From: Pseudomonas sp. B6002
GTDB taxonomy: Bacteria; Pseudomonadota; Gammaproteobacteria; Pseudomonadales; Pseudomonadaceae
Assembly (NCBI RefSeq): GCF_013385985.1
Contig: NZ_JACAOY010000006.1
Coordinates: 812,790-876,789 of the forward strand
DNA: 64,000 bases
Direction of reading: 5' to 3'
The notes beneath the pieces are model-generated. The model was not told the DNA's origin, ran no database searches, and worked only from the letters and a program-made list of their open reading frames with translations. Shown here one piece after another: positions 10,755-28,672 of the stretch. How positions within the stretch are numbered: position 1 is the first letter of the stretch; every line of letters starts with the position of its first letter. A program made the position numbers and the translations under genes.

Positions 10755-10795
10755 ACAGGCCCCGTGGACGAAAGGGAAAGGAGGTTCCAGTGTTT

Positions 10796-10843: not shown

Positions 10844-10850
10844 AGGCGGC

Positions 10851-12344: not shown

Positions 12345-12360
12345 GGCGCGCATCTGTGCA

Positions 12361-12379
12361 ATTGAGAAGTATTCCCAAT
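12361..12379. promoter_or_regulatory. Candidate Fur box ahead of the fecI-like gene
   Basis: ATTGAGAAGTATTCCCAAT is an almost perfect 19-bp dyad (left half ATTGAGAA, right half TTCCCAAT, one mismatch) in the 36-bp space between the MFS stop codon and the sigma gene. It resembles the Pseudomonas Fur consensus with TTGAGAAT/ATTCTCAA half-sites. This implies iron repression of fecIR from a promoter close to or inside the end of the MFS gene. Confidence 0.6.
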
Positions 12380-12380
12380 G

Positions 12381-13553: not shown

Positions 13554-13570
13554 GCGTCAGTCTCGTTTTC

Positions 13571-13615
13571 TAAAAAAGGCTGTCAGGGCTGATACTTTTT
13601 CGCGCGTCGGCTGGC
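13571..13615 (+). promoter_or_regulatory. Promoter-like element shared by the two TonB receptor genes (copy 2)
   Basis: GGGCTGATACTTTTTCGCG is followed by CGTCGGCTGGC and preceded by TAAAAAAGG. It aligns with the reverse-strand element at 10796-10843 with one gap in the T-run and a few substitutions. It ends 46 bp before the ATG of the second receptor. The inference is that the same FecI-type sigma factor serves both receptors. Confidence 0.55.
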
Positions 13616-13661
13616 ATCAGGGGTAATTCCCATTTCATCTCACTGAAAGGTCCCTGACGTC

Positions 13662-15821
13662 ATGCCCGTTGCCAGCCGGTTAACATTCGCCATTCGTACT
13701 GCCTTGCTGTTGGCCGCCACCAACACCTGGGCCGCCACCACAGAGTCGAGCGACGACAGCGCGCAGAGCCTGACGCTTGAAGCGACGAACGTCAACGCCG
13801 TTTACAGCGGGCCCAGTGACCTGCCTGAAGCGTTTGCCGGCGACCAAGTGGCACGCGGCGCACGCTTGGGCATGCTGGGCAACAAGGACGTGATGGACAC
13901 GCCATTCAGCGTCACCAGCTACACCGCCAAGACCCTTGCCGACCTGCAAACCGTGACCGTGGCCGACGCGTTGGAGCGTGATCCGTCGGTGCGTTCCACC
14001 GGGCAAACCGGTGGCATCGTCGACTCGTTTTTCATCCGTGGCTTTGCGATTGGCGAAGGTAACCTGGGCGAGTTGGCCTATGACGGCGTGTACGGCGTAG
14101 CGCCAAACTACCGCGCGTTTACCGAGTACGCCGAGCGCATCGAAGTGCTCAAGGGACCGGGTGCGCTGATGTACGGCATCTCGCCCAACAGTGGCGTGGG
14201 TGGCGTGATCAACATCGTGCCCAAACGTCCGCTGGAGGAAGACCTGACCCGCTTTACCGGCAGTTATGCTTCGGACAGCCAAACCGGTGGCCATCTGGAT
14301 ATCAGCCGTCGTTTTGGTGAGGAAAACCAATTCGGTGTGCGCTTCAATGGCAGCCTGCAGGGCGGTGATACGGCGATCGACAACCAGCATCGCGACGTGG
14401 GCATTGGTGCCATCGCCCTGGATTATCGCGGGGAACGGCTGCGCCTGAACCTGGACTACATCAGCCAGAAGGAAAGCTGGGAGGGCGCCTCGCGGCCGTT
14501 CACGATCGCGCCAGGCGTAGAGGTGCCTTCTGCCGCCAATGGGCGCACCAGTTTGCCGCAAAAGTGGGGTTGGTCCGACACCAAGGAGCAATCTGCTTTG
14601 CTCGGCGGTGAATACGACCTGAACGATAACCTGACCGTATTCGCCCACGCCGGTGGCGGTAAGTCGGATGTGAAACGCATGTCTGACCAGGTGCCACGTA
14701 TTCTCAATGCGGCCGGCGATACCAGCAACATTCCGGGTTACTACAAGTTCAACGTCGACCGATCAACCGCGGATGTTGGCCTTCGCGGCCGTTTCGACAC
14801 CGGCCCGGTGACCCATATCACCACGCTGATGGCGACGCGTTACCAGGACGAACTGTCCCGGGGCATCACCAACGGCACGGAAATCCGTTCCAACATCTAC
14901 CACCCGGTGGACACGCCCAAGCAATACCTCAATACGCCCAAAGTGCTGCGCATTTCTGAATCGGATTTGTCCGGCGTAGCACTGACTGACACCCTCGGCA
15001 TCTTGGACGACCGCATCCAACTGACCCTTGGCGTGCGCCGGCAAGACATTGAATCGCGTAACTACAACGCGGCGGGTGCCGTCAGTTCGCGCTACAAAGA
15101 CAATGCCACCACGCCGTTGGTAGGCGTGGTGGTCAAGCCGTGGGATGACGTGTCGCTGTACTACAACTATGTAGAAGGGTTGAGCAAAGGTGACATCGCA
15201 CCGGGCACGGCCATCAATGCCGGGGAGACCTTTGCACCCTATACGTCCAAGCAGCATGAAGTGGGCGTCAAGTATGAGCACGGCACCTTCATGACCACCG
15301 TGGCGTTGTTCCAGATTGAAAAGCCCAGCGGCGAGATTGGCAGCAACAATGTGTACTCGGTGCAGGCCGAGCAACGTAACCGAGGTGTGGAATTGAGCAT
15401 GTTCGGCGAAGTTGCACCCGGCACGCGATTGATGGGGGGCGTGACGGTGCTGGATGGCGAGTTGACGAAATCGGCCACCGCCGCGAACAAGGGCAACAAA
15501 CCAGTCGGCGTACCCGACATTCAAGCCAACCTGTGGGCAGAGTGGGACACGCCGTGGCTGGAAGGTTTTACCCTCACGGGAGGGGCGATCTATACCGACA
15601 GCCAGTATGTGAACCAGGCCAATACTCAGGAGCTGGATTCATGGACACGCATCGATGCAGGTGCACGTTATGCAACGAAGATAGAAGGGCGACCGACTAC
15701 GTTCCGCGCGACAGTCCAGAACGTGTTTGATCGTGAGTATTGGTCGGGCGTGGCGTCATATGGCGCGTTTTCGCCGGGTTATCCGAGGACATTGCAATTG
15801 TCGGCGACGGTAGATTTCTGA
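13662..15821 (+). CDS. TonB-dependent ferric-siderophore receptor, paralogue without signalling domain
   Basis: A 719-residue outer-membrane receptor. A signal peptide (cleavage near NTWA) is followed directly by a TonB-interacting segment and the plug, so the STN signalling domain of the neighbour at 8382-10754 is missing. From the plug onwards the two proteins can be aligned almost without gaps (shared RSTGQTGGIVDSFFIRGF, GNLGELA, YAERIEV, KGPGAL, FDREYWSGVASYGAF). It would import the same or a related siderophore but cannot signal through FecR. It is transcribed divergently from the MFS gene. The most likely origin is a local duplication with loss of the signalling domain, or gain of that domain by the other copy. 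Confidence 0.93.
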   Translation: MPVASRLTFAIRTALLLAATNTWAATTESSDDSAQSLTLEATNVNAVYSGPSDLPEAFAGDQVARGARLGMLGNKDVMDTPFSVTSYTAKTLADLQTVTVADALERDPSVRSTGQTGGIVDSFFIRGFAIGEGNLGELAYDGVYGVAPNYRAFTEYAERIEVLKGPGALMYGISPNSGVGGVINIVPKRPLEEDLTRFTGSYASDSQTGGHLDISRRFGEENQFGVRFNGSLQGGDTAIDNQHRDVGIGAIALDYRGERLRLNLDYISQKESWEGASRPFTIAPGVEVPSAANGRTSLPQKWGWSDTKEQSALLGGEYDLNDNLTVFAHAGGGKSDVKRMSDQVPRILNAAGDTSNIPGYYKFNVDRSTADVGLRGRFDTGPVTHITTLMATRYQDELSRGITNGTEIRSNIYHPVDTPKQYLNTPKVLRISESDLSGVALTDTLGILDDRIQLTLGVRRQDIESRNYNAAGAVSSRYKDNATTPLVGVVVKPWDDVSLYYNYVEGLSKGDIAPGTAINAGETFAPYTSKQHEVGVKYEHGTFMTTVALFQIEKPSGEIGSNNVYSVQAEQRNRGVELSMFGEVAPGTRLMGGVTVLDGELTKSATAANKGNKPVGVPDIQANLWAEWDTPWLEGFTLTGGAIYTDSQYVNQANTQELDSWTRIDAGARYATKIEGRPTTFRATVQNVFDREYWSGVASYGAFSPGYPRTLQLSATVDF

Positions 15822-15845
15822 TCTTCAATCGAACCGAGTGCATAT

Positions 15846-15875
15846 AACTCAACTAAATAGTCATTTAGTTGAGTT
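15846..15875. repeat. 13-bp perfect inverted repeat between convergent genes
   Basis: AACTCAACTAAAT, a 4-nt spacer (AGTC), then ATTTAGTTGAGTT. It lies between the receptor stop (15821) and the HxlR stop (15895). The stem is AT-rich with no downstream T-run, so it is a poor classical terminator; it could still act as a bidirectional transcription stop or as a protein-binding site. Confidence 0.6.
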
Positions 15876-15894
15876 GGCTATCAGGGCAGGGGAT

Positions 15895-16254
15895 TCAAGA
15901 CTGGGAGAGGGTGGCAGTACGTCGCTCAGCGATACGCTCAACGGTTTGCATATGCTCAGTACCCCATTGGCACAAAGCCCCCAGCGCCGTAGCCAGGGAA
16001 TGCCCGAAAGGTGTCAGAGAATACTCGACCTTGGGCGGTATTTCCTGGAAATCCACGCGGGAGATGATCTCGTCGCGCTCCAATTCCTTGAGTTGCTGGA
16101 TCAGCACTTTATCGGTCACGCCGCCAATCGCGCGTCGTAATTCACCATATCGATGAACATTTTGCGCCAGGTTGAACAGCACCAAGGGCTTCCATTTGCC
16201 GCCAATCACCGCCAGGGCGGCCTCGAGCCCGCAGTTAAATGAGTTGTTGGCCAT
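15895..16254 (-). CDS. HxlR-family transcriptional regulator
   Basis: A 119-residue winged-helix protein with the HxlR signature: a Cys near the N-terminus (NCGLEAALAVIGGKWKPLVL), then RYGELRRAIGGVTDKVLIQQLKELERDEII and VEYSLTPFGHSL. HxlR proteins of this group often sense quinones, aldehydes or redox stress through that Cys (position 8 here) and repress a divergent oxidoreductase gene. That arrangement is present: the SDR gene starts 106 bp away in the opposite direction. An imperfect dyad at 16279-16300 in the shared promoter region may be its operator. Confidence 0.9.
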   Translation of the reverse strand: MANNSFNCGLEAALAVIGGKWKPLVLFNLAQNVHRYGELRRAIGGVTDKVLIQQLKELERDEIISRVDFQEIPPKVEYSLTPFGHSLATALGALCQWGTEHMQTVERIAERRTATLSQS

Positions 16255-16278
16255 GATCGAGAAGGCTCCACAGGGGGG

Positions 16279-16300
16279 GTACTTACTAAAAGGTGCATAC
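16279..16300. promoter_or_regulatory. Candidate HxlR operator in the divergent promoter
   Basis: GTACTTAC, a 6-nt spacer (TAAAAG), then GTGCATAC: an imperfect dyad (5 of 8 positions pair) in the 106-bp region between the HxlR and SDR genes. The call rests on position and partial symmetry only. Confidence 0.3.
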
Positions 16301-16360
16301 TATTCAAAAAAATAGCGCAGATCTACAGTTGGGCCTCAACCTTATTCTTCGGAGTTCACC

Positions 16361-17110
16361 ATGGGCAGGCTCAACGGAAAAATCGCAGTCATCACCGGTG
16401 GCAACAGCGGCATCGGCCTGGCAACCGCCATTCGTTTTGCGGCTGAAGGCGCCCAAGTCATCATTGTAGGGCGCCGGCAGGAAGAACTGGACAAAGCGCT
16501 GCAACTGATCGGTCCTGAAGCCATTGCCATACAAGGCGACATTTCAAAACTGGACGACCTTGATCGCGTGTTCACTCAAGTCAAAGCCGCCAAGGGCCGG
16601 GTTGACGTGTTGTTCGCCAACGCCGGCCTGGGGGATTTCCAACCGATCGGCGTGATCACGGAGGAATCGTTTGACCGTACCTTCGGCATCAACGTCAAGG
16701 GCACGCTGTTCACCGTACAAAAAGCCTTGCCACTGATGAGTGCCGGCAGCTCTGTGATCCTGACGGGATCGACCACCGGAACCATGGGCACACCGGCATT
16801 CAGCGTGTACAGCGCGACAAAAGCGGCGCTGCGGAATTTCGCCAGAAGCTGGGCATTGGACCTCAAAGGCACGGGCATTCGCGTCAACGTGCTGTCGCCA
16901 GGTCCGATCTCGACGCCAGGCCTGGACCTCGCGCTTTCAGGCACAGGTCAGAAGGAAGCGATCATTGACGACATGACCGCGCAGGTTCCGTTGAACCGCA
17001 TTGGCAAGCCGGAAGAAGTCGCAGCCGCCGCGTTGTTCCTGGCATCGGATGAGAGCAGCTTCATGACGGGCAGTGAAATGTTTGTTGATGGTGGGTTTGC
17101 TCAGGTTTGA
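16361..17110 (+). CDS. Short-chain dehydrogenase/reductase
   Basis: A 249-residue classical SDR. The cofactor motif TGGNSGIG is at about 12-19, the NAG motif appears as ANAGLGD, and the catalytic Ser (ILTGSTTG) and YSATKAA (Tyr and Lys four apart) are present. The C-terminal block [29 protein letters not shown] is typical. An Arg in GRR after the second strand suggests NADP(H) preference. It is divergent from an HxlR repressor gene, a pairing often linked to carbonyl or electrophile detoxification. The physiological substrate is unknown. Confidence 0.92.
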
Positions 17111-17805
17111 GGTAGATGGGGGTTTTGCCTGTTGAAATCTGACGGGCACTGCCTCTGATGACGCAATGCGATATTACGCATAATGTATATTATGTTAAAT
17201 AATGTGTTATGTCAGATATGTCCATGAGCTACGTAAGTCACTGATTCGACGAATTCATGTTTGATGTCTACTCTCTCAACGGGCCATGTCCATAGTGTTC
17301 ATGCTGCGACGCATCTACGCGCGATTGAGGCTTGCTACTTGAGCCGATTCTGGCTTTTCTGAAGTGGCCGCCAAGCCGGTAATCTGATCGCCCGAATTGG
17401 AGTAGTTCCAATTGCGCTTTTTCCTCAGATCGATGCACATACCCGTGACGAGTACCTACGGTTGCTTGAGTAATACCCGTCCTGGTGTGTCCCCGTTACA
17501 TTCTGCGAGTCCGTCATAACTCAATTGCTTTCGCCGTGACGATATCAGTTGATCAAGAACACGCGTCACCCGCCTCCTCTTTGCCAGCCTACATGTTCAA
17601 GGGGCTGGCTCAGGTATCGATTGGGCTGCGCTTCATCTGAACTCTAACATCATGCAAGATTCATCAATTGCGCCCCCCTAACCAGTAACCGGAATCAATT
17701 GGTCTAGGGTGGATTGGACGGCGGATAGGAATGTGAAAAAGGTAGATATATTGATTTTTCTTTGTAATATTTATGTTTATCAATATTTTCGAGTCATATG
17801 GTGCT
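17111..17805. other. AT-rich left border of the inserted catabolic island
   Basis: About 700 bp without a convincing gene, where base composition falls from that of the SDR gene to that of the following island. It holds a 6+6 bp dyad CATAATGTATATTATG at 17179-17194 and an open stretch at 17363-17473 (37 codons to a stop; reads ...NLIARIGVVPIALFPQIDAH...) that could be the tail of a decayed gene, with no family recognised. The inverted ATATTGAT/ATCAATAT boxes are at 17748-17786. No transposase or integrase was recognised. Confidence 0.5.
17748..17786. promoter_or_regulatory. Inverted ATATTGAT / ATCAATAT boxes ahead of the HTH-citrate synthase gene
   Basis: Two perfect inverse copies of an 8-bp box (17748-17755 and 17779-17786) lie 20-58 bp upstream of the chosen start codon. 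ATCAATAT recurs in the palindrome upstream of the amidase gene (19555-19574). This is consistent with autoregulation by the helix-turn-helix protein and control of the amidase operon. Confidence 0.4.
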
Positions 17806-18990
17806 ATGCCGGAATATCTCTCTACTAAAGAAACCGCAGCTCGACTTGGGATTTCTCGCCAGACGCTCTACGCCTATGTCAGCCGCGGCATGCTTCAATC
17901 CCTGCCAAGCGATATCCCTCGTGAAAGCCGTTATTTGGAAAGCGAGGTCGAACACCTCGCGCTTAAACGGCGTCGCGGAAGAAAATCAAAGGATGTGGCG
18001 AAGGCGACGCTCGATTGGGGCTTTCCGGTGCTTGAGTCATCGATTTCACTGATTCAAGATCAGCACTTGTATTATCGCGGGCTGGATGCGATTGCACTCG
18101 CGCAAACAATGACCCTTGAAGACGTTTCTGCCCATTTATGGCAAATGTCAAAGGCAACTGCCTTTAAGAATAATCATCCGGTTGAATCTACTGGTCAGGT
18201 AGCGCTTTCGAAACTGCCCCCCGAGAGATTCGAACAAAGTATTCTGCGCGACTTCACCCTCATTAGTGAGGATATTGGGACCGCTGCATGGCAACGTTCC
18301 CCTGAACAAATTGCTGGGGGCTGCGGAACACTCGTTCGATTATTGGCCGCTTGCTTGCTGAACTCTCAGCCGAGCGCGGAACCGATTCACATGCAATGTG
18401 CGAAGAAGTGGAATCTCGATGCTGAGGGAGCAGATTTAATCCGAATGGCACTCGTGCTCTGCGCAGACCATGAATTAAACACCTCGTCTTTCGTCGCTCG
18501 CTGCGTGGCATCCACGGGAGCAAGCCTACGTGCAGCTGTGATTGCCGGCCTTGCTGCGCTAACCGGCACTCGCCACGGTGGCACTACAGCACGTGGCGAA
18601 GCGCTTTGGGAGGAGCTGGGCGAAAGTCAGCCCATAGCTAAATTGCACGCGCGTCTTGCTCGAGGCGAAGACCTCCCTGGTTTCGGACACCATGTTTATC
18701 CGTCCGGAGATCCTCGCGCAGTTGCATTGCTCAGCCGTGTTTTGCCTCACCATCAGAAGTGGCAAGCTTTTATAGATGAAGGCGCCAAATTGGTAGGTGC
18801 TCGTCCTTCGGTAGATCTCGCGCTGGTTGCGCTAAGGCGACATCTAAATTTACCCGTTGGTGCCGCATTCGGTCTGTTCGCGCTAGGTCGTTCGGCTGGC
18901 TGGATCGCCCATGCTATTGAGCAGCGCACGATGAAGGATCTTATACGGCCTCGAGCCGCATATGTCGGCCCTACTCCCATACCTTCATAG
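17806..18990 (+). CDS. Helix-turn-helix / citrate-synthase fusion protein
   Basis: About 394 residues. The N-terminal 55 residues form a MerR/excisionase-type helix-turn-helix (YLSTKETAARLGISRQTLYA), followed by a citrate-synthase-family domain. The catalytic set of that family is preserved: His in ADHELN (about 222), His in TRHGG (about 257), His and Arg in GFGHHVYPSGDPR (His about 295), and Asp in PSVDL (about 337). It may therefore still bind or condense an acyl-CoA and a 2-oxoacid while sensing the pathway state, but no activity is proven. The start at 17806 places the HTH at the N-terminus; an upstream in-frame ATG at 17773 would overlap the inverted boxes and has no ribosome-binding site. 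It is the first gene of the AT-richer island and its likely regulator. Confidence 0.85.
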   Translation: MPEYLSTKETAARLGISRQTLYAYVSRGMLQSLPSDIPRESRYLESEVEHLALKRRRGRKSKDVAKATLDWGFPVLESSISLIQDQHLYYRGLDAIALAQTMTLEDVSAHLWQMSKATAFKNNHPVESTGQVALSKLPPERFEQSILRDFTLISEDIGTAAWQRSPEQIAGGCGTLVRLLAACLLNSQPSAEPIHMQCAKKWNLDAEGADLIRMALVLCADHELNTSSFVARCVASTGASLRAAVIAGLAALTGTRHGGTTARGEALWEELGESQPIAKLHARLARGEDLPGFGHHVYPSGDPRAVALLSRVLPHHQKWQAFIDEGAKLVGARPSVDLALVALRRHLNLPVGAAFGLFALGRSAGWIAHAIEQRTMKDLIRPRAAYVGPTPIPS

Positions 18991-18998
18991 GCGGACCC

Positions 18999-19020
18999 GC
19001 TTCCTTTATCCAAAGGAAGC
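18999..19020 (+). terminator. Hairpin after the HTH-citrate synthase gene
   Basis: GCTTCCTTT-ATCC-AAAGGAAGC is a perfect 9-bp stem with a 4-nt loop starting 8 bp after the stop codon. It lacks a following T-run, so it is either a weak intrinsic terminator or an mRNA 3'-end stabilising structure. Confidence 0.5.
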
Positions 19021-19049
19021 AGACGAGCAATCGAAGACGTCAAGACCTA

Positions 19050-19109
19050 TTGCACTGCTTTGTGTCGAAAGCCCTACGTGCCATCTTTTAGCGATATAAA
19101 GCAGTGCAA
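19050..19109. repeat. 12-bp perfect inverted repeat with 36-bp spacer
   Basis: TTGCACTGCTTT at 19050-19061 and AAAGCAGTGCAA at 19098-19109. The 60-bp span could be a remnant of a small inverted-repeat element or a regulatory fold. No flanking target duplication was recognised. Confidence 0.5.
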
Positions 19110-19554
19110 ACGTTGACAGTTATAACTGACATCCGCATGAGATCAGAGCGCTCTTCCCCCCCCAAAAAAAAATATAGACTTGACGCCTTCTTATAGCGTG
19201 GCCAATCGCTCTTGCGCGCTTGGTAAATCGCCGCTTTCACTAAGCATCTACGAATACCGCCTGCACAAAACACGCTGCGTTCTGCGATTGGCGTGACTGA
19301 GCCCTTTGATTACTGCAATCACCTAGCACTGGCAGTTGAGGCGCTCGTACTGCTCGCAAACTGTCAGGAGCCCCGTCAAGCAGACGTCGTAGTTTCATCG
19401 TACGAGTAACCGTAAGGCGGGCAACCGAAATACCCTCCCCCTCGTTAGCTGTCTGACCTTCACGATCTTACAGAACGCCGTCCCGTTAGAGATCGCGCCC
19501 AGAAGCTGGTCGTCTTTCTGGCCCGAATCGGAGAGTCGGTGAGCTCAACAAATG

Positions 19555-19571
19555 TTGATTATATTAATCAA
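19555..19571. promoter_or_regulatory. Palindrome upstream of the amidase gene
   Basis: TTGATTA-TAT-TAATCAA is a perfect 7+7 bp dyad 84-100 bp before the amidase start. Its right half continues as ATCAATATT, the box also found ahead of the HTH-citrate synthase gene. Confidence 0.4.
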
Positions 19572-19654
19572 TATTTACATATTATTCTGTAGGAATATTA
19601 TCAGATCAACATATATGTCGATCGTCGCTCAACGCTATTTCGAGGCTGGTCACT

Positions 19655-21205
19655 ATGCGTTTCTCCACTCTTTCAGTTCTTGGCGCTGTCGCCACACTGC
19701 TCTCGGGGCCTTCTATGTCATCTCCCGTTCTGCCCGCTCTCGCAAGAGAAAGCGATCCTTTGGTAACGATCTCGCAAACATTGGAGGTGCAGTCAAATGG
19801 CTCGATGACTTGTGTCGCTATTGCCCAGCAGTCGTTGGACGCAATCCGTCGTCTCAACCCTGCCCTGAACGCATTTATCACTGTGAATCCGAACTTGCTA
19901 TCTGATGCTGCAAGTCTAGATGCCCTTCGTGAGGCGGGAACGGTCTTACCGCTGCACTGCGTCACGGTTGCGGTAAAAGACAACATAGATGTCGCTGGCA
20001 TGCCGACAACCGGCGGATCCGTGCTGCTCCAGAACAATCAACCTGAACATGATGCCGACGTAATAAGCCGCCTCCGCGCCGCCGGCGCATTATTTGTCGG
20101 CAAGACCAATCTCGACGAGCTGGCTGTCGCAGGCAGCACGATTAGTTCGGTCGGCGGGCAAACGCTGAATCCGTACGACAAGACACGGTTTGCGGCTGGC
20201 TCCAGCGGTGGTTCCGCGGTATCGGCATCGATCGGGATTTCAGTATGTTCTATCGGTACCGAGACCGTGAACTCGCTGCGTAACGCGGCAAGTTCAGCCA
20301 GTGTTGTAGGGGTTCGTACAACACCTGGTCTCGTTAGTCGAAACGGCGTTATCCCTCTGTCCTCGTCAATGGATGTCGTGGGGCCGATCTGCCGTAACGT
20401 TGAAGATTCGGCGCGAATGCTTGAACAAATGACAGGGGTCGTACAGAGCAACTCAGCAATAGCGGCGGATGAAGCGGCGCACAAACAAATTGCCCTGGAA
20501 AACTTGCACCCTGCAGATCTAAAAGGCATGCGGCTCGGCGTGCTCAGAAATCTCTTTTCAACCGAAGCAGATGGTGCACCAACTAATAAAGTCCTCGACG
20601 CCGCGCTCGACAAATTACGCTCGGCCGGCGCCCAGATCGTTTTAATTGACGATACGGAGTTCGACTCTGCGACGTCGAATGAGCGCATGAACGTAAGTAA
20701 CTATGAGTTCCGCCCTTTGTTCGATAAGTATTTGTCGTCGATCAAAGGTGTTTCCGGTGTTGAAAACACCAAGGATTACTATGATGCACACCGGTTCCCA
20801 GCGTCGACGATGGAAAAGTTCCTAAAGAATGCGGTTAGTTGGGATGATCCTTTAGATATGCCTGAGTATCTCGCCGCACTTCGATACACCGCAACATTTA
20901 AGACGAAACTTCTTGACCTGATAAGTACGCATCAACTTGATGCACTTGTGTACCCATCACAGAAGCGCCCTCCGATTTTGCAAACAGACAAGCCACGTCC
21001 AGAACGTAACGGGGTATTTGCTTCTGCTATGGGGCTGCCAGCTATTGATCTACCGGCGGGCTTCACTGCACCGACTGAAAGCGCACCAGTAGGATTGCCG
21101 GTGGGTATGGATTTGCTTGCTCGGCCGCATGATGACATGAAACTACTCAATGTCGCCTTGGCCATTGAAAAAACGCTTAATGCGCGCCGCGCTCCCTTGC
21201 TTTAG
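19655..21205 (+). CDS. Exported amidase-signature family hydrolase
   Basis: A 516-residue amidase of the Ser-cisSer-Lys family. The catalytic Lys is about 108 (VAVKDNIDVAG), the cis-Ser pair about 183-184 (AGSSGGSA) and the nucleophile Ser about 207 (GTETVNSLRNAAS, against the family's GTDTGGSIRNPA). The N-terminus (MRFSTLSVLGAVATLLSG) looks like a Sec signal peptide, so the enzyme may act in the periplasm on an amide substrate. It is the first gene of a rightward set with an aldolase, transporter, enolase-family enzyme and dehydrogenase, suggesting that it releases the carbon skeleton they degrade. The start is supported by GAGG about 10 nt upstream. The Gly-Gly before the nucleophile is replaced by Val-Asn, an unusual variant. 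Confidence 0.88.
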   Translation: MRFSTLSVLGAVATLLSGPSMSSPVLPALARESDPLVTISQTLEVQSNGSMTCVAIAQQSLDAIRRLNPALNAFITVNPNLLSDAASLDALREAGTVLPLHCVTVAVKDNIDVAGMPTTGGSVLLQNNQPEHDADVISRLRAAGALFVGKTNLDELAVAGSTISSVGGQTLNPYDKTRFAAGSSGGSAVSASIGISVCSIGTETVNSLRNAASSASVVGVRTTPGLVSRNGVIPLSSSMDVVGPICRNVEDSARMLEQMTGVVQSNSAIAADEAAHKQIALENLHPADLKGMRLGVLRNLFSTEADGAPTNKVLDAALDKLRSAGAQIVLIDDTEFDSATSNERMNVSNYEFRPLFDKYLSSIKGVSGVENTKDYYDAHRFPASTMEKFLKNAVSWDDPLDMPEYLAALRYTATFKTKLLDLISTHQLDALVYPSQKRPPILQTDKPRPERNGVFASAMGLPAIDLPAGFTAPTESAPVGLPVGMDLLARPHDDMKLLNVALAIEKTLNARRAPLL

Positions 21206-21306
21206 CGCCCGTAATGTTCAGAGCAGCGTTGCGGAAAACACAACCGCCCGCATTGTTGACTGAATAAAGATCGCTGCCACTTCAACAACAATAAGGAGAC
21301 TCCCGT

Positions 21307-22017
21307 ATGACTAATCAGAGTTCTAATGACGACCGCGTTGGATGGCCGCCTGGTTTCTTTATCGGTTCGCGTGAGCGAGTCCCGACGGATACTCAAATCA
21401 CTGCCTATACCGGTAGGCCAGTCGCGACAATCGGAGATTGTCTCGGACGTAGTTTGGGAGCGATAGGTTTGAAGGCTTACCACGAGTCTTTGCGCCTGAC
21501 GATGTGCGGTCCTGCGCTCACCGTGCGCGTGCGCCCCGGCGACAATTTGATGATCCATAAGGCGTTGGAACTCGCGAGAGCCGGTGACGTGCTGGTCATC
21601 GATGGTGGCGGGGATCTGTCACAGGCGGTAATTGGAGGCCTGATACGAACCACTGCGCTGGCTGCAAGATTAAGCGGGATCGTTCTGGACGGGGCATTGC
21701 GCGATGTCGCTGAATGGAGTGATGGTTGCATGCCCATTTTCGCGAAGGGACACACTCATCGCGGACCGACGAAGAGTGGCCCTGGAGAGATCAATATTCC
21801 GATCGCATGCTCTGGTATGACGATAGCGCCAGGAGATCTGGTGATTGGGGATGCTGACGGTGTGATCTCTATTCCAGTCGACCAGTTGGATGAGTTGCTG
21901 CCACGGGTTCTTGAGCATGAGCGGCATGAAGCGGTCATTCGCGAGGCTAATGCCAGTCGCAGCTCCGATCCTGAGCGCTTCAACGCGATTCTTCGCGCTT
22001 GCGGATGCCCGGTCTGA
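21307..22017 (+). CDS. RraA-like family protein, probable 2-oxoacid aldolase
   Basis: A 236-residue member of the RraA/HMG-CHA aldolase family. The central block GDNLMIHKALELARAGDVLV with IDGGGDLSQAVIGGL, and IVLDGALRDVAE with the metal-site Arg-Asp pair, match 4-hydroxy-4-methyl-2-oxoglutarate / 4-carboxy-4-hydroxy-2-oxoadipate aldolases. Those enzymes cleave tertiary hydroxy-2-oxoacids to pyruvate using a divalent metal. The RNase E inhibitor RraA is a shorter relative without the C-terminal extension seen here (RVLEHERHEAVIREANAS). In this operon, aldol cleavage of a catabolic intermediate is the more likely role. AAGGAG lies about 10 nt before the start. Confidence 0.85.
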   Translation: MTNQSSNDDRVGWPPGFFIGSRERVPTDTQITAYTGRPVATIGDCLGRSLGAIGLKAYHESLRLTMCGPALTVRVRPGDNLMIHKALELARAGDVLVIDGGGDLSQAVIGGLIRTTALAARLSGIVLDGALRDVAEWSDGCMPIFAKGHTHRGPTKSGPGEINIPIACSGMTIAPGDLVIGDADGVISIPVDQLDELLPRVLEHERHEAVIREANASRSSDPERFNAILRACGCPV

Positions 22018-22045
22018 GTGTTGTTTGTATCAAGGAGCCAATGAA

Positions 22046-23419
22046 ATGAAATCTATTGCATTGCACTCGCCTGACGCTTCATGTCAGGTCACGAGTACCC
22101 CAATCAGCTTTTCCGGTCAGCAGAAATCGGTACTTGAGAAAGTCCGCCGTCGCATGTTGCCTATATTGATGCTGTGTTACTTCGCTGCTTTTCTTGATCG
22201 GGTTAATGTCGGTGTTGCTGCGCTTCAGATGAATACTGACCTTGGTCTAACCAATGCTCAATTCGGACTAGGTGCGGGGCTTTTTTTTGTGGGCTACGTC
22301 ATATTCGAAGTGCCGAGTAATCTTCTGCTGGTGCGTCTTGGTGCGCGCCGATGGATGCCACGAATTCTCATCAGCTGGGGGATCGTGTCGGCATGCATGG
22401 CTCTGGCTTGGGATCAAAGTAGCTTCTATGCTTTAAGAACGTTGCTTGGAATTGCAGAGGCTGGTTTTTTTCCCGGCATGCTCTTTTATTTGACACTTTG
22501 GTTTCCACGCAACTATCGGGCAGGTGTTTATTCCTTACTCTCGGTGGCGGTTCCACTCTCGTCGGTCGTTGGCGTACCTCTATCTAGCTGGATACTGAAT
22601 AACTTTCACGGTTTTGCGGGGCTAAAGAGCTGGCAATGGATGTTCATTATTGAAGGGATGCCTGCGATTATTATGGGGGGAGTGTTCTATTACTTTCTGC
22701 CAAGCCGCCCTGAGGAGGCAACATTCCTGAGTTCGGATGAACGGACTACTCTTGTCGACCTGATGCACGCTGATCGAGGGGCGCACCAGCTTGCTAATAA
22801 GCATGAAAATGGTCACTCTTCATTGATACGAATGTTCGGAGACAAACGAATATGGGCTATGTGCCTAATCGAGATGTGCCTGATCATCGGATCAAATAGC
22901 ACAGCAATTTGGATGCCGCAGTTTGTCAATACATCTCATGTTCAGATGTCGTTAATGCAAGTAGGATTTATCGCAGCGTTGCCACCTTTGGCTGCGTGCG
23001 CCGCAATTTTATTCAGCGGATGGAATGCTGACCGAACTGGCAGGCGTGTCGCGCATGTTGCAATCCCTTTTTTGATCGCCAGCGCAGGGTTTGCATTAAC
23101 TGCATGCTCGGATTCCGATTTGGTACGACTGATCGGGCTAGTGATCGGGAGCGCCGGAATTTCAGCGAGTATTCCGAACGTTTGGTATATCCCAACAGCA
23201 CTGCTTTCGGGCTCTGCAGGTGCTGCCGGGCTTGCTCTGATCAATTCGGTTGGAAGCTTCGGTGGTATTTTTGGCCCCTATGTAATTGGTGAAATACGAG
23301 ACTTAACCGGTTCCTTCAATGGTTCCTTGCTGTTTCTCGCCGGCGTGGTAGCACTCGCCTCAATCACTGTAACCATACTTGGGCATCGGATGCGGTTTAT
23401 ATTAAATCCTCCAGCATAA
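22046..23419 (+). CDS. MFS transporter, anion:cation symporter (ACS) type
   Basis: A 457-residue protein with about 12 membrane helices. The N-terminal signature LPILMLCYFAAFLDRVNVGVA and the conserved GYVIFEVPSNLLLVRLGARRWMPRILISWG are diagnostic of the ACS family, which takes up organic anions such as tartrate, phthalate, hexuronates and galactonate with protons. It presumably imports the substrate of the island's pathway, probably a carboxylate. Start: ATG 22046, preceded by CAAGGAG about 9 nt upstream; the frame is open further back into the aldolase gene, but no better start exists there. Spacing to the aldolase gene is 28 bp. Confidence 0.9.
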   Translation: MKSIALHSPDASCQVTSTPISFSGQQKSVLEKVRRRMLPILMLCYFAAFLDRVNVGVAALQMNTDLGLTNAQFGLGAGLFFVGYVIFEVPSNLLLVRLGARRWMPRILISWGIVSACMALAWDQSSFYALRTLLGIAEAGFFPGMLFYLTLWFPRNYRAGVYSLLSVAVPLSSVVGVPLSSWILNNFHGFAGLKSWQWMFIIEGMPAIIMGGVFYYFLPSRPEEATFLSSDERTTLVDLMHADRGAHQLANKHENGHSSLIRMFGDKRIWAMCLIEMCLIIGSNSTAIWMPQFVNTSHVQMSLMQVGFIAALPPLAACAAILFSGWNADRTGRRVAHVAIPFLIASAGFALTACSDSDLVRLIGLVIGSAGISASIPNVWYIPTALLSGSAGAAGLALINSVGSFGGIFGPYVIGEIRDLTGSFNGSLLFLAGVVALASITVTILGHRMRFILNPPA

Positions 23420-23488
23420 CACGACCTCAATTCACCCTATTACGACTTGGTCCCCGACGCGATATCGGGTTTCACGTAGGAAATAAAA

Positions 23489-24688
23489 ATGAATAATCAA
23501 GTAAGAAATTGTCTACTTTCGTCGAGCAACGCTCGGATCAAAGAAGTACGAATTATATCAGTCGCCGCTGCACCTCGATCGAATTGGTCATTTTTATCCA
23601 TCGACACAGATGATGGGCGAACTGGCTGGGGCGAACTTACATTGCGCTCGCATGAGCGCTTGCTCGACTTGGCACTCGAAGAATTGCGACCATCTTTAAT
23701 CGGCAAATCGCTTACACAAGTTTTTAGCGATTTCGCAGCGCGCCCATCCTTACCAAGTGGGCGAGTAGGCAATACACTGCTATCCGCGCTTGACCAGGCT
23801 GCAACTGACTTAGTTGCGCAAGTGAAGGGGCAGCCTATTTTTGAATTACTGGGCTGTCGACGTAAGCGGCCGTTGCGCGGTTACGCGACAGTCAATCGAA
23901 GCGTTCGTGAACGCACGCCGGAAGGATTTGCTCAAGCAAGCCTGCGTGCGGTCGAGGCAGGTTTTCGAGGTGTCAAGATTATGCCATTTGACGCATTGCT
24001 TCCCGCGACAGCTGCAACTCTTCAGGGCAAGCACGAAATCGAGCGAGCGCTTGAGCGAGTAGAGGCGGTGCGTGAGACGGTAGGCAGTGGAGTTCAGTTG
24101 ATGGTCGATTGCCACTGGCGACTTGATGAAGCTAGCGCATTAACATTTATCGAGCGTGCTGCGCAATCACACCTGCATTGGGTCGAATGCCCTGTGCCCG
24201 AAAGTGAATTATGGGATGCCGCTATCGCACGACTACGTCAGCATGCAAATGCCTGTGGGATACTGTTAGCGGGTGCCGAGAACGGAGTCTGCGCTAGTGG
24301 GTACACTCGCTTTATCCAAAAAGGGCTCTATGATGTAGTGATGCCTGATATCAAGTATTGCGGTGGTTATGGCGAGCTGGGGCATATCGTCCGCCTAGCG
24401 CGGGAAAATGGCGTTTCCGTGTCATTACATAATCCTAGTGGACCCGTCGCGCACATGCATTCGTTACATGCATGCTTAGCCCTAGGGCTCGACGAGCCGA
24501 TCGAGCATCAATTTTCGGAGTCGCCTCTTTTTCAATCCATAATAAACGGTGTTGGGCCGATTACTGCGAATGGCAGTTTCGAGATTGGTGAGGCTGCGGG
24601 CCTTGGAGTTTCGGTTGATACTGAGCGTGCTGCAAGTCACCCGCTTGCTTATGTTCCACTTTCGCTAGCCGATCCCAGCTTTGCGTAG
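23489..24688 (+). CDS. Enolase-superfamily enzyme (mandelate racemase/dehydratase-like)
   Basis: A 399-residue enolase-superfamily protein. The N-terminal capping domain (about 17-130) is followed by the barrel. Metal ligands Asp about 207 (MVDCHW), Glu about 233 (WVECP) and Glu about 264 (AGAENG) are visible, with candidate acid/base residues Lys about 163 (GVKIMPFD), Asp about 287 (MPDIKYCGG) and His about 314 (LHNPSGP). The usual second Lys of a KxK motif is Met here, so the enzyme is more likely a dehydratase-like member than a racemase. It would dehydrate or epimerise a hydroxy-acid intermediate. It follows the transporter gene by 69 bp. The exact reaction is unknown. Confidence 0.87.
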   Translation: MNNQVRNCLLSSSNARIKEVRIISVAAAPRSNWSFLSIDTDDGRTGWGELTLRSHERLLDLALEELRPSLIGKSLTQVFSDFAARPSLPSGRVGNTLLSALDQAATDLVAQVKGQPIFELLGCRRKRPLRGYATVNRSVRERTPEGFAQASLRAVEAGFRGVKIMPFDALLPATAATLQGKHEIERALERVEAVRETVGSGVQLMVDCHWRLDEASALTFIERAAQSHLHWVECPVPESELWDAAIARLRQHANACGILLAGAENGVCASGYTRFIQKGLYDVVMPDIKYCGGYGELGHIVRLARENGVSVSLHNPSGPVAHMHSLHACLALGLDEPIEHQFSESPLFQSIINGVGPITANGSFEIGEAAGLGVSVDTERAASHPLAYVPLSLADPSFA

Positions 24689-24839
24689 GGAATTACCGGA
24701 AGGCAAGAAAATCCCTTGATCATTTTTGATGTCGAAGCATTGAGTAGATTCGCATGCTAGGCTAACTACGCAGACTGCCGAACTTCGAACGGTAGTTACT
24801 TGATCCACCTAAGCCAGGCGTTCTGTTTCAGAGAGGTAC

Positions 24840-24872
24840 GGTGCATTCTCAGCAGTGGCAAGAGGATGCACC
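24840..24872 (+). other. Hairpin in the gap before the dehydrogenase gene
   Basis: GGTGCAT and ATGCACC form a 7-bp stem around a 19-nt loop in the 273-bp space between the enolase-family gene and the dehydrogenase gene. The gap holds no other gene. The hairpin may be an attenuating or mRNA-processing structure, since the last gene is further from its neighbours than the others. Confidence 0.3.
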
Positions 24873-24961
24873 TTGTGACGTGGTTGCAGCAGCAATCAAA
24901 CGATTCCAACAGACGTGTTTTTAAATCGCAAGCAACTGCTTTTAACTAAGCGGGAGGAAAT

Positions 24962-25831
24962 ATGACGTTAACAGTTGGCATTATCTCTGCTGGCGCTATG
25001 GGTAGCGCATTGGGCGCTCGTTTGAATAGCAAGGGATTGAGGGTTCTAACATCTCTGGAGGGACGCAGTAGCGCCAGTCGGTCTCGCGCAAAATCGGCGG
25101 GAATGGTAGAAGCGAGCGATGACCAGATTAGGGAAGAGGCTAGTGTTATTTTTTCGATAGTTCCTCCAGCGCAAGCGATTATAGTTGCCCAGAGGTTTTG
25201 TACGAGTTTTTCCAATAGTTCAACCACGAAACTGTATGTTGATTGCAACGCAATCAGCGTCTCTAAAGCTATAGAGATCGAACAGCTGTTTTCTAACGGG
25301 GGCGTATGTTTTGCGGATGGCGGCATTATTGGTCAGCCTCCAAAAAAAGATGAGGAGGGCCCGCGGATTTATATCTCAGGCAATATATCAAGTGAAGCGT
25401 CCGACTGGCTAAAACTTATCAAACAGTCTGGAGTTGATATTCGTTTTCTTGATGGCCCTGTTGGTGCTTCATCTGCTTTGAAGCTTTCTTATGCAGGCAT
25501 CACCAAAGGAATTACGGCGTTAGGTGCTTGTATGATTCTTGCCGCAGATCGGGCAGGAAGTGGTAGATCCCTGCGAGAGGAGCTAATAGCAAGTCAGCCA
25601 CAGATTATGACTAGACTTTCGAAAACATTACCAGAAATGTATTCCAAAGCCTATCGATGGGTAGATGAGATGGAGTCAATTTCTGATTTTATTGGGGATA
25701 CATTTCCCGAGAAACATATTTTTATTGGCGCCGCTGCGCTATTTGAACGCATCGCCAATGATTTTTCTGGAAATGGCGACGAATGTGCAACAATGGACAG
25801 CTTTCTAAAACAACCAGATGCGAACGCCTGA
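24962..25831 (+). CDS. NAD(P)-dependent 6PGDH-like dehydrogenase with DUF1932-type C-terminus
   Basis: A 289-residue beta-hydroxyacid-dehydrogenase-like protein. An N-terminal Rossmann fold carries GIISAGAMGSALGARL (about 6-21); a helical C-terminal domain of the DUF1932 type begins near 165. The family's catalytic Lys is probably about 174 (SALKLSYAGITKG). It should oxidise a hydroxy acid with NAD(P)+, or reduce the reverse. It closes the island's gene set. GGGAGG lies 5 nt before the start. Sampled base composition of this gene is about 42% G+C, far below the flanking chromosome, which supports horizontal origin. Confidence 0.85.
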   Translation: MTLTVGIISAGAMGSALGARLNSKGLRVLTSLEGRSSASRSRAKSAGMVEASDDQIREEASVIFSIVPPAQAIIVAQRFCTSFSNSSTTKLYVDCNAISVSKAIEIEQLFSNGGVCFADGGIIGQPPKKDEEGPRIYISGNISSEASDWLKLIKQSGVDIRFLDGPVGASSALKLSYAGITKGITALGACMILAADRAGSGRSLREELIASQPQIMTRLSKTLPEMYSKAYRWVDEMESISDFIGDTFPEKHIFIGAAALFERIANDFSGNGDECATMDSFLKQPDANA

Positions 25832-25895
25832 ATTCCATACTATATTCATTAGAACCGGGCCTGAACACAGTCGGCAATCAACGTTTTACAACATG

Positions 25896-25978
25896 CTACG
25901 CAGGTCCAGTAGCTCATCGGTAGAGAAAGCGTACGGCGAATACAGAGGTCACGGGGCAGTGAATCGCCCCGAACTCTC
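25896..25978 (+). other. tRNA-like relic at the right border of the island (uncertain)
   Basis: The stretch reads AGTAGCTCATCGGTAGAG, like a tRNA D-arm, followed 21 nt later by CAGAGGTCACGGGG and a stem CGGGGC/GCCCCG, like a T-arm. There is no matching acceptor stem, the anticodon stem is poor and position 33 is not T. It is not a working tRNA gene; it may be the remnant of an integration target or chance. Confidence 0.2.
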
Positions 25979-25997
25979 TAAAGCAGACTACAACCGA

Positions 25998-26561
25998 TCA
26001 CTCCGAAATATCAGTCACCCGAATCACCCGATCATCCCCCCCCTGCCCACTCCCCTTCCTCTCCCTACGATCATTAATCCACCCCCCAACCTGAGCAGCA
26101 AACTCCGCTGGCGACTTACGCCCAACCTTCCTCGCAAGATCAAGAATGGTCTGTTGAGCCAGCGCATCTTCCATACGCTTCTGCGCCGTCATCATGGCCG
26201 CATGGACTGAGCAGTGGCCGTCCAGCGCCCAGGCCGGTGGCGCGCCATCAAACAACGCGCAACGCCCGCGGATCTCGCGGCAATTGAAGATGAGTTTCTG
26301 GCCGTCGATCGCGTTGACGATATCGAGCAGGCTGATTTCGTCAGACGGCCTGGACAGCTTGAAGCCGCCGCGCACGCCTTCGGTGGCCACGACCAGTTTG
26401 GCCTTGGCCAGCTTGGTGAAAATCTTCCCGAGGTAATCCAGGGGCACACCTTGCAACTCAGCAAGGTCGCGCACGCTGGCCTCTCGGCTTTCGCCGCCAT
26501 CGCCCACCAGGAAAATCAGGCAATGAATGCCGTATTCAACGCCTGCGCTGTAAAGAGACAT
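25998..26561 (-). CDS. Rrf2-family transcriptional regulator
   Basis: About 187 residues. A winged-helix domain (ASVRDLAELQGVPLDYLGKI, then GVRGGFKLSRP) is followed by a cysteine-containing segment (NCREIRGRC and later GHCSVH), which in Rrf2 proteins such as IscR, NsrR or RsrR may bind an Fe-S cluster. It is therefore probably a redox or iron-sulfur sensor. Start: ATG 26561 (MSLYSAGVEYG), preceded by GGAG about 8 nt upstream. The divergent neighbour is a flavin NAD(P)H oxidoreductase starting 250 bp away, its likely target. The C-terminal tail is longer than in IscR and ends near the border of the AT-rich island. Confidence 0.9.
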   Translation of the reverse strand: MSLYSAGVEYGIHCLIFLVGDGGESREASVRDLAELQGVPLDYLGKIFTKLAKAKLVVATEGVRGGFKLSRPSDEISLLDIVNAIDGQKLIFNCREIRGRCALFDGAPPAWALDGHCSVHAAMMTAQKRMEDALAQQTILDLARKVGRKSPAEFAAQVGGWINDRRERKGSGQGGDDRVIRVTDISE

Positions 26562-26750
26562 GCCAATCTCCGACTTAATTAGTCGCATAACCTAACAGAA
26601 TACCGTGGGGCAAGCCAGCTCTCCACGCGCTAGACCACTGCCATCCAGGCACCAAATTCCTATAGCGAGAGCCCCATTTCGTAAGGCTTTCGAGACTTTT
26701 CCCACGCCGGTTAAAACGCAGCCTCGCAAAAAATAGCCTTGCGCCAATTA

Positions 26751-26773
26751 ACTACGACAAATATAGTCGCCGT
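26751..26773. promoter_or_regulatory. Candidate Rrf2 operator ahead of the flavoprotein gene
   Basis: ACTACGACAAATATAGTCGC holds two nested dyads (CGAC/GTCG and ACTA/TAGT) around an AT-rich centre, about 40 bp before the oxidoreductase start. The call is based on symmetry and position only. Confidence 0.25.
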
Positions 26774-26811
26774 TATCGATCCACCCATCACCTCACCCCC
26801 AAGGTAAAAAA

Positions 26812-28014
26812 ATGAAGCAGCACATTCTGATTATTGGCGCCGGTTTTGGCGGCCTGTGGACGGCATTGAGCGCGACGCGCCTGTTCGACATCCATGACCG
26901 CAATGACGTCGACGTAACCGTATTGGCCCCGCAAGCCGAGCTGCGCATCCGCCCGCGTTTTTACGAACCGGATGCTCACCAGCTGTTCGCGCCGATTGGC
27001 GAACTGTTCGAGGCAGTAGGTGTGACCTTCATCAAAGGCGCGGCCGAGACCATCGACGTCGAACAAAAACACGTCGCCTACCTCGATGCCTCCGGCAATC
27101 GGCAGGTGCTCAACTACGACAAGCTGGTACTGGCCACCGGCAGCCGGCTCGCCATGCCGGGCACGCCGGGTGTAGCGGAGCACGCCTTTGCCGTAGACCA
27201 GATCGAGCAAGCCGTACGCCTGGAGAACCACCTCAAAGCCCTGGCAGACCGTCCCTACAGCAAAGGCCGTAACACCGTAGTCGTGGCTGGCGGCGGCTTC
27301 ACCGGCATAGAAACAGCAACCGAAATGCCCGCACGTTTGCGTGCCATCCTGGGTGAAAACGCCGATATCGAGGTGATCATCGTGGATCGCAGCGAAGCAA
27401 TCGGCGCGTCGATGGGCGCAGAAATCGGCCGGTCGATTGCCGAAGCCAGCGAGGAACTGAGTGTGAAATGGCAGTTGAAATCCTCGGTGGTCGCCGTCGA
27501 TGAAAATGGCGTCACCCTGGACAATGGCCAGCATCTGGAAGCCCGTACCGTGATCTGGACCACCGGCGTGCGCGCCAGCTCGCTGACCGAACAGATCCCC
27601 GGTGAGCGTGATGCGCTTGGGCGCCTGCACGTGGATGCGAACCTCAAAGTCATCGGCCAACCCGATGTCTTCGCCACCGGCGATGTGGCTTACGCCGCCA
27701 CCGATGCGCTGGGCAACCACGCGTTGATGACCTGTCAGCATGCGATCATGCTGGGCCGTTACGCCGGCAACAATGTCGCCGCGCAGGTTCTGGGGGTGGA
27801 TCCGACACCTTACAGCCAGCCCAAGTACGTGACCTGCCTGGACCTGGGCGGCTGGGGCGCGGTGTACACCGAGGGTTGGGATCGCCAGGTCAAGTTGACT
27901 CGCCAGGAAGGCAAATCGCTCAAGACCCAAATCAATACGGTGTGGATCTACCCACCGGCTGCCAACCGTGAAGCGGCGTGGGCGGCGGCGGATCCATTGA
28001 TCCCGATTGCCTGA
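26812..28014 (+). CDS. FAD-dependent NAD(P)H oxidoreductase, NDH-2-like
   Basis: A 400-residue two-dinucleotide-binding-domain flavoprotein. FAD-binding IIGAGFGGLWTAL is at the N-terminus, the NAD(P)H-binding VVAGGGFTGIETA near 162, and the second FAD motif is VFATGDVAYA. Overall it resembles type II NADH dehydrogenases, which pass electrons from NADH to quinone without proton pumping, although the amphipathic C-terminal membrane anchor of true NDH-2 is not obvious. It is divergent from an Rrf2 regulator, suggesting induction by redox or nitrosative stress. Other flavoprotein reductases (for example ferredoxin or quinone reductases) cannot be excluded. Confidence 0.85.
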   Translation: MKQHILIIGAGFGGLWTALSATRLFDIHDRNDVDVTVLAPQAELRIRPRFYEPDAHQLFAPIGELFEAVGVTFIKGAAETIDVEQKHVAYLDASGNRQVLNYDKLVLATGSRLAMPGTPGVAEHAFAVDQIEQAVRLENHLKALADRPYSKGRNTVVVAGGGFTGIETATEMPARLRAILGENADIEVIIVDRSEAIGASMGAEIGRSIAEASEELSVKWQLKSSVVAVDENGVTLDNGQHLEARTVIWTTGVRASSLTEQIPGERDALGRLHVDANLKVIGQPDVFATGDVAYAATDALGNHALMTCQHAIMLGRYAGNNVAAQVLGVDPTPYSQPKYVTCLDLGGWGAVYTEGWDRQVKLTRQEGKSLKTQINTVWIYPPAANREAAWAAADPLIPIA

Positions 28015-28069
28015 CAGGCCTTTGACGAGCGTGGCCGGTACCCATCCCGGCTCACCTCTCAGCTGACAA

Positions 28070-28672
28070 TCAACGCAACACGCCATGGATCGCAGCAACC
28101 ACCTGCCTCGTCGCTTCCTCAATCGTCCCTTCATTACGGCATAAAACCCATCCATGCGCCGCAGCCGCCCGCTCGAATGCCTCGGTACACGCGGTATGTT
28201 CTTGCAGCGAATGGATCACGGTACTGCCCAGTCCACGCCCGCGTGCGGCAGCCCTCGCCCATGAGATCTCGGGTGCAGTGACCACCCCGACATGCAGATC
28301 CGGCACTCGCACGTTTCGCTCAATGTTCAACCGCAGGATCTCTTCCATCGGAACGCTGCGGCGAAAGGCGGCATCCGACGGATACCAGCGGTCAATCAAC
28401 ACGATACTGCCTGCTGGCTGCTTGGGCAGCACGTGTTGGGAGATCCACGCACGGCTATCCGCGAAACGCTCACACACCGCCCACTCCAAATCCCGCCCAG
28501 GGTGCCTGGCGAGCGTGTTCACGAGAGCCATTGTTTCACTTCTATCGGGATCGTTATTTCGCTCGCACAGCCGGATCACCTTGTTGTTGTCAGCCCTCAG
28601 GGCTTTGGTAACGGCTTCCAACAGCGTGGTTTTACCCGTGCCCTTGGGCCCATCCAGAGAAATAAACATCAT
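28070..28672 (-). CDS. dTMP-kinase-like P-loop nucleoside/nucleotide kinase
   Basis: A 200-residue P-loop protein. It has Walker A GPKGTGKTT (about 9-17) after the strand FISLDG, then DRWYPSDAAFRRS (about 93), comparable to the DR(Y/W) substrate motif of thymidylate kinases, and an Arg-rich LID-like segment ARAAARGRGLG. It is shorter and more divergent than housekeeping Tmk, so it is probably an accessory kinase with an unknown substrate. It stands alone, convergent with the flavoprotein gene. The first two codons are both ATG and either could be used. Confidence 0.7.
   Translation of the reverse strand: MMFISLDGPKGTGKTTLLEAVTKALRADNNKVIRLCERNNDPDRSETMALVNTLARHPGRDLEWAVCERFADSRAWISQHVLPKQPAGSIVLIDRWYPSDAAFRRSVPMEEILRLNIERNVRVPDLHVGVVTAPEISWARAAARGRGLGSTVIHSLQEHTACTEAFERAAAAHGWVLCRNEGTIEEATRQVVAAIHGVLR

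Follow-up and report, generated by a model that had tools for sequence, protein, structure and literature searches.

Several described systems come close to the locus considered here, a block of six genes (the island) within a 64,000-nucleotide (nt) stretch of Pseudomonas sp. B6002 (contig NZ_JACAOY010000006.1), the whole of which is referred to below as the window. Galactarate and glucarate catabolism in enteric bacteria (gar/gud) combines an ACS-family transporter, an acid-sugar dehydratase of the enolase superfamily, a pyruvate-forming aldolase, and a reductase similar to beta-hydroxyacid dehydrogenases, and in all four the island is alike. Unlike gar/gud, however, it has an aldolase of the RraA type and a reductase of the DUF1932 type, carries an additional and probably exported amidase, holds no glycerate kinase among its six genes, and misses NCBIfam cut-offs. 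On the regulatory side, the first gene encodes a helix-turn-helix (HTH) domain fused to a citrate synthase domain (HTH-citrate synthase). It resembles PutA and BirA, one-component regulators with enzyme-derived sensors or trigger enzymes, in which an enzyme fold is joined to, or carries, a DNA-binding helix-turn-helix, but here it is a citrate-synthase fold that forms the sensor or enzyme part.

Two extra citrate-synthase-like proteins, CitB and CitC, are known from Caulobacter. According to PMC7083601, their genes carry the consecutive tags CCNA_03757 and CCNA_03758, and gltA complementation in E. coli succeeds with CitB and fails with CitC; the terms 'helix-turn-helix' and 'HTH' are absent from that text. 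In another report, the CCNA_03757 promoter serves as the negative control in gel shifts with IscR (PMC11475020). CitB and CitC possibly represent the paired arrangement that is seen in HTH-citrate synthase loci. Among the top-listed matches in the open-access PMC literature, judged by title and the opening of the abstract, no description of a DNA-binding citrate synthase was found. In the oxidation of 4-deoxy-L-erythro-5-hexoseulose uronic acid (DEHU) by Flavobacterium sp. UMI-01, a 2-keto-3-deoxy acid sugar is the substrate of FlDet, an enzyme of the RraA family; that system differs in that this substrate comes from alginate and a semialdehyde dehydrogenase follows (PMC8563752).

The island is proposed here, with a probability of roughly 0.6, to be a horizontally acquired catabolic operon with a one-component switch of its own, in that the HTH-citrate synthase would control the amidase route. 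The operator of the HTH-citrate synthases is a stronger and more general result than the pathway. Relatives of single genes were gathered by protein search of plasmids and genomes, and the surroundings of some of them were read (125 fetched loci, most spanning 4-20 kb); the island, its insertion, the families, the active-site residues, the conserved operator, and its single copy in this genome were all obtained by computation.

Reading the promoters of five HTH-citrate synthase genes side by side with the amidase promoter of the window revealed a common palindromic core, TTGATY-N5-RATCAA. The loci defining it are five plasmid loci, four from alphaproteobacteria (Azospirillum twice, Pseudoroseomonas, and Chelatococcus) and one from Comamonas; the remaining loci of the 29 are Agrobacterium L066 and further genomes, some of them of the window's own class. 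In 18 of the 23 loci not used to define it (L071-L093), the core is found at 11-12 of its 12 positions and at most 75 nt from the start. The longer site, RTCAATNTTGATY-N5-RATCAAYAT, is matched at at least 18 of 21 positions in 25 of the 29 loci, beginning 24-80 nt upstream of gene starts extrapolated from the alignment, and holds 1.42 bits of information per position versus 0.32 and 0.21 in its 30-nt flanks (21 dereplicated loci). In 24 control loci, retrieved on account of other genes and totalling 422,125 bases, no match reaches 17 of the 21 positions. Eight other genomes, picked for carrying the site, hold one copy each with zero to two mismatches, always beside an HTH-citrate synthase. Leaving aside one site read in reverse, three further places with three mismatches are spread over two of these genomes. 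Two exact matches in IMG/VR viral contigs lie within open frames, have no HTH-citrate synthase nearby, and were counted as background.

Within the window, a candidate operator, ACAAATGTTGATTATATTAATCAATAT, lies in the 664-nt gap between the first and the second gene, 80 nt before the amidase start, and overlaps by one base a promoter-like TTTACA-16-TATTAT, although promoter-like sites are no more frequent in this region than in its shuffles. None of 2000 shuffles of the surrounding 155-nt stretch reaches the score of this operator. The whole genome (6,678,559 bases) was searched with the long form with A first, ATCAATNTTGATYNNNNNRATCAAYAT, at up to three mismatches, and a single place was found, this same site, read on both strands; the pattern read backwards has no match in the whole genome. 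The core with up to one mismatch gives two sites in the window versus 0.28 expected, a number reached by 2 of 100 shuffles. The operator thus located probably ties the window's HTH-citrate synthase to the amidase operon.

The protein itself passes the Pfam cut-offs of HTH_17 (31.3, cut-off 27) and Citrate_synt (183.8, cut-off 27) and misses the NCBIfam citrate synthase cut-offs (133 versus 332 for the best model). Its start at 17806, as given in the preliminary description of this DNA, fits the family alignment better than the longer open reading frame (ORF) from 17773. It keeps the catalytic His257, His295, and Asp337 of the citrate synthase site as well as the oxaloacetate-binding Arg304, Arg362, and Arg381; among 29 relatives, the first three recur in 26, 25, and 26, respectively, and the three arginines in all. 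With these residues persisting in the window protein and in most relatives, the citrate-synthase domain may be either a sensor still able to bind acyl-CoA and a 2-oxo acid or a genuine trigger enzyme. The recognition region TLYAYVSRG is strongly conserved in the family and present in the window protein, with one or two changes in L067 and L088-L091. Counting the window's own, 23 of the 214 phylum genomes sampled have an HTH-citrate synthase, and in 17 of the 29 loci the divergent partner of this gene is a second citrate synthase that has no HTH, in which Glu replaces the Asp of the motif (17/17). A family III CoA-transferase takes this place in four loci, three of which hold the closest relatives (53-60% identical), and a DUF2332 gene in one, while in seven none of these is directly adjacent.

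The conserved operator marks HTH-citrate synthases as probable DNA-binding regulators. The preliminary description had treated the protein as a step of the pathway, a role that found no support; the operator makes regulation more likely, and the protein is probably a switch rather than a pathway step. In more general terms, HTH-citrate synthases, annotated as 'citrate synthase family protein', are quite likely to be widespread unrecognised one-component transcription factors or trigger enzymes, which would sense a 2-oxo acid or acyl-CoA via an intact citrate-synthase domain and act on the long site as a single operator per genome, usually placed so that their gene lies on one side and a divergent CoA-transferase or second citrate synthase on the other; here, one of them would have been placed in charge of an acquired amide or sugar-acid operon. 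If this is true, genes filed as spare citrate synthases act as metabolic switches of local reach, each aimed at a defined DNA target, and the operator becomes a means of finding what each of them controls, indicating a catabolic operon in the present case. It would also explain the divergent second citrate-synthase gene beside many HTH-citrate synthases.

The block is a real island, recently acquired by insertion. Its lower G+C content, already pointed out beforehand, is borne out by values per kb of 0.466-0.553 at 17001-26000 versus 0.552-0.665 over the remaining 55 kb of the window (about 62% in the surroundings), and its codon usage is foreign. All six frames (17806-25831) are open, with G+C at third codon positions of 0.390-0.565 and codon-adaptation indices of 0.355-0.428, versus means of 0.738 (standard deviation 0.084) and 0.633 (standard deviation 0.085) in 38 other long ORFs of the window, chosen greedily by length and including some shadow ORFs. 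In a genome of the same genus (G017), window positions 15824-17209 (86% identity) and 28089-28666 (75%) align only 30 bases apart, an empty site; because both flanks adjoin there, about 10.9 kb is inserted relative to that genome. The left-flank alignments of two more genomes (G035 and G004) likewise end at 17207, with no right-flank match seen there. The insertion thus extends past the island to about 28.09 kb and takes in an Rrf2 regulator gene and an NADH dehydrogenase-like gene of normal base composition. This divergent pair stays together in each of the four loci retrieved with relatives of the second gene (L058, L059, L063, and L064), and the AT-rich block proper therefore ends between 25831 and about 26043.

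Conserved presence in close relatives, tested for the enolase-superfamily gene and via the empty site, was not observed, in agreement with the acquired origin suggested earlier. Among the best few first-look candidates scored per genome, no counterpart of this gene reaches E<=1e-40 in 398 other genomes of the genus (of 399) or in 397 of the phylum (of 398), or 1e-45 in 368 of the class (of 369), these samples overlapping; the best plasmid relatives of its product are 35% identical. A DNA search with the whole island against plasmids gave no match.

The family assignments of the preliminary description held for all six genes, each with Pfam matches above cut-off (HTH_17 and Citrate_synt, Amidase, RraA-like, MFS_1, both N- and C-terminal MR_MLE domains, and NAD_binding_2 and DUF1932). 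When the amidase is aligned with the peptide amidase 1m21, the Lys-Ser-Ser triad of the amidase signature family is seen to be retained as Lys108, Ser183/184, and Ser207; the hydrophobic N-terminus of the protein is the one feature suggesting that it is probably exported. The RraA-like protein holds the motif G-X20-R-D-X2-E, also found in four of four relatives (L015-L018), the second of the two motifs described in catalytic RraA proteins (general form G-X20-R-D-X2-E/D), the other being D-X20-R-D. The enolase-superfamily enzyme aligns to galactonate and mannonate dehydratases: the metal-binding Asp207, Glu233, and Glu264 align with 3rr1, as do His209 of the DxH and His314 of the HNP (HxP) motif, and its Asp, His, and Glu residues also align with mannonate dehydratases. 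These residues fit an amidase, an acid-sugar dehydratase, and an RraA-type pyruvate aldolase, and the acid-sugar or hydroxy-acid route that they suggest is plausible.

Table 1. Features of the window, with positions counted from its first nucleotide
Feature	Position	Strand	Evidence or remark
Inserted stretch, island plus Rrf2/NADH dehydrogenase-like pair	17210..28088		Alignment to G017 (L060); left alignments of G035 and G004 stop at 17207
HTH_17-citrate synthase fusion, 394 aa, proposed regulator	17806..18990	+	Pfam; family alignment
Possible second, weaker operator core, one mismatch	19306..19322		Core search of the window
Candidate operator, 19/21 informative positions	19548..19574		Pattern search with the family site
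Promoter-like TTTACA-16-TATTAT	19574..19601	+	Right after operator; weak match
Amidase-signature hydrolase, peptide-amidase-like, hydrophobic N-terminus; Lys108, Ser183/184, Ser207	19655..21205	+	Pfam; alignment
RraA-like class II aldolase/decarboxylase; Gly111-X20-Arg132-Asp133-X2-Glu136	21307..22017	+	Pfam; alignment
MFS transporter, HpaX/galactonate-transporter-like (ACS family)	22040..23419	+	Pfam; NCBIfam; ORF open from 21890
Enolase-superfamily, acid-sugar-dehydratase-like; Lys163, Asp207-x-His209, Glu233, Glu264, His314	23489..24688	+	Pfam; alignment
6PGDH-like/DUF1932 dehydrogenase	24962..25831	+	Pfam; 273 nt after previous gene
Rrf2 regulator	25998..26588	-	Pfam; outside AT-rich block, inside inserted stretch
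NADH dehydrogenase-like protein	26812..28014	+	Pfam; outside AT-rich block, inside inserted stretch

The mechanism that we infer, including DNA binding, dimerisation, the direction of control, the ligand, export, the substrate, and every reaction, would be as follows. The HTH-citrate synthase would bind the candidate operator, next to the -35-like box of the promoter-like sequence, probably as a dimer, and control the amidase, RraA, MFS, and enolase-superfamily genes, with the DUF1932 gene, possibly a transcription unit of its own, perhaps controlled separately; its citrate-synthase domain, with the catalytic residues intact, would sense acyl-CoA, a 2-oxo acid, or both. An amide would be hydrolysed by the exported amidase, and the acid so released would be taken up by the MFS symporter and dehydrated by the enolase-superfamily enzyme. 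The resulting 2-keto-3-deoxy acid would be the substrate that the RraA-like enzyme cleaves or decarboxylates, and the DUF1932 enzyme would reduce the aldehyde or oxidise an intermediate. The block probably breaks down an amide or a sugar acid. Amide hydrolysis, import, dehydration, and retro-aldol cleavage had been suggested in the preliminary description; the active-site residues fit and leave these steps plausible, while the pathway itself, and the order of its steps, we infer by analogy with gar/gud. Its statement that no named pathway has such a set needs softening, given that the logic is like that of gar/gud and of galactonate catabolism, with two steps carried out by other protein families.

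The intact catalytic residues, kept in most relatives, fit a plain enzyme too, and the HTH-citrate synthase could be a metabolic enzyme only, with the conserved site belonging to a host regulator or to a bending protein such as integration host factor (IHF). The consensus of IHF sites includes ATCAA, which the conserved site also contains. However, IHF sites are numerous in every genome, whereas the conserved site tracks the HTH-citrate synthase gene across distant genera and is single-copy at zero to two mismatches in the nine genomes scanned, and the simplest assumption is that a conserved palindrome is bound by the helix-turn-helix protein encoded next to it, all of which makes this explanation improbable. 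Regulation by the HTH-citrate synthase has, on the other hand, several observations to contend with. The short core alone occurs at eight places in the genome, and the promoter of the window's own HTH-citrate synthase lacks a clear site (best 8/12, with 472 of 500 shuffles as good), unlike those of its relatives. The annotated start of Agrobacterium L066 is further upstream and would place the site inside the gene. L093 lacks the site, as does L081, a real exception, which has the TLYAYVSRG helix yet no site here or in its 19-kb locus L104.

The catabolic operon is likewise burdened by the NCBIfam scores. The enolase-superfamily protein misses the cut-off of the galactonate dehydratase DgoD (135.4 versus 311), the DUF1932 protein, which resembles tartronate semialdehyde reductase only remotely, misses that of the corresponding model GarR (26.6 versus 397), the MFS transporter (317 versus 615) and the amidase (290 versus 534) miss those of named enzymes, and RraA meets only that of a 'hypothetical protein' subfamily (236 versus 231). 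The six families, presented earlier as one set, do not co-occur elsewhere either, which counts against the set: outside the window's own genome, none of the 125 loci holds more than two of them and only three hold two (E<=1e-8), in two cases with a weak amidase match as one partner. The block may then be a mosaic of unrelated cargo, in which regulator and amidase belong together and the enzymes form no pathway, as the 273-nt gap ahead of the DUF1932 gene and the composite nature of the inserted stretch would also suggest. Such a mosaic seems unlikely, though, considering that the first four operon genes share one strand with spacings of 101, 22, and 69 nt, that the island genes have their base composition in common, and that the third two-family locus, from Caballeronia insecticola (L015), combines RraA (63% identical) with an MFS transporter (39%), one amidohydrolase gene lying between them. 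As for the end of the route, G-X20-R-D-X2-E is the motif of aldolases and decarboxylases. According to PMC5065237, most RraA homologues have 'one of two motifs' and probably act as class II pyruvate aldolases. RraA could instead be a 2-keto-3-deoxyaldarate dehydratase/decarboxylase like FlDet, an RraA-family enzyme which acts on 2-keto-3-deoxy-D-glucarate (PMC8563752), so that the route would end in 2-oxoglutarate semialdehyde and not in pyruvate. A substrate of this kind could be the product of the enolase-superfamily enzyme acting upstream, but no aldehyde dehydrogenase is found among the six genes, and this ending is considered doubtful.

Since no clear site precedes the regulator gene of the window, self-control, if any, differs here. 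Two operator-like half-sites at 17740-17788, before this gene (ATATTGAT-N23-ATCAATAT), were considered as a means of self-control and dropped, their spacing differing from that of the family site. In the two other loci that lack the common operator, L071 and L092, the HTH reads VGRK where VSRG is usual, which would fit a changed specificity. Near-identical sequences, GTAAATCTGTACT(A/C)AAAACGTCCACA, were seen at -49 in L071 (G013) and L108/L092 (G028), of the same genus, and are a candidate changed operator, though L071 and L092 are close relatives. Beside both HTH-citrate synthases there are D-2-hydroxyacid dehydrogenase-like and symporter-like genes, named by eye.

Relatives of RraA (25 listed, 56-63% identity) were opened in four plasmid loci (L015-L018, from Caballeronia, Pantoea twice, and Comamonadaceae), and in all four the gene is directly preceded by one annotated as a hydroxyacid dehydrogenase, apparently a conserved two-gene unit, so that the 2-oxo acid may arise there by oxidation rather than dehydration. 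The DUF1932 protein is of a common kind, with relatives at 1e-40 in 13 of the 398 phylum genomes, its own included, and its gene was dropped as an island marker, the surroundings that were opened looking unrelated.

Regarding traces of integration, no tRNA or Rfam family (apart from one chance lncRNA match, E=3) and no convincing flanking direct repeats were found. A stretch resembling a tRNA D-arm was seen by eye just after the island (25900-25990, near 25.92 kb) and could be a decayed attachment site, but ARAGORN and Rfam find nothing there. To the left of the insertion, at 8382-15821, lie genes for a FecI-like sigma factor, FecR, and a TonB-dependent receptor, with a second TonB-receptor-like ORF, named by eye, at 13662-15821.

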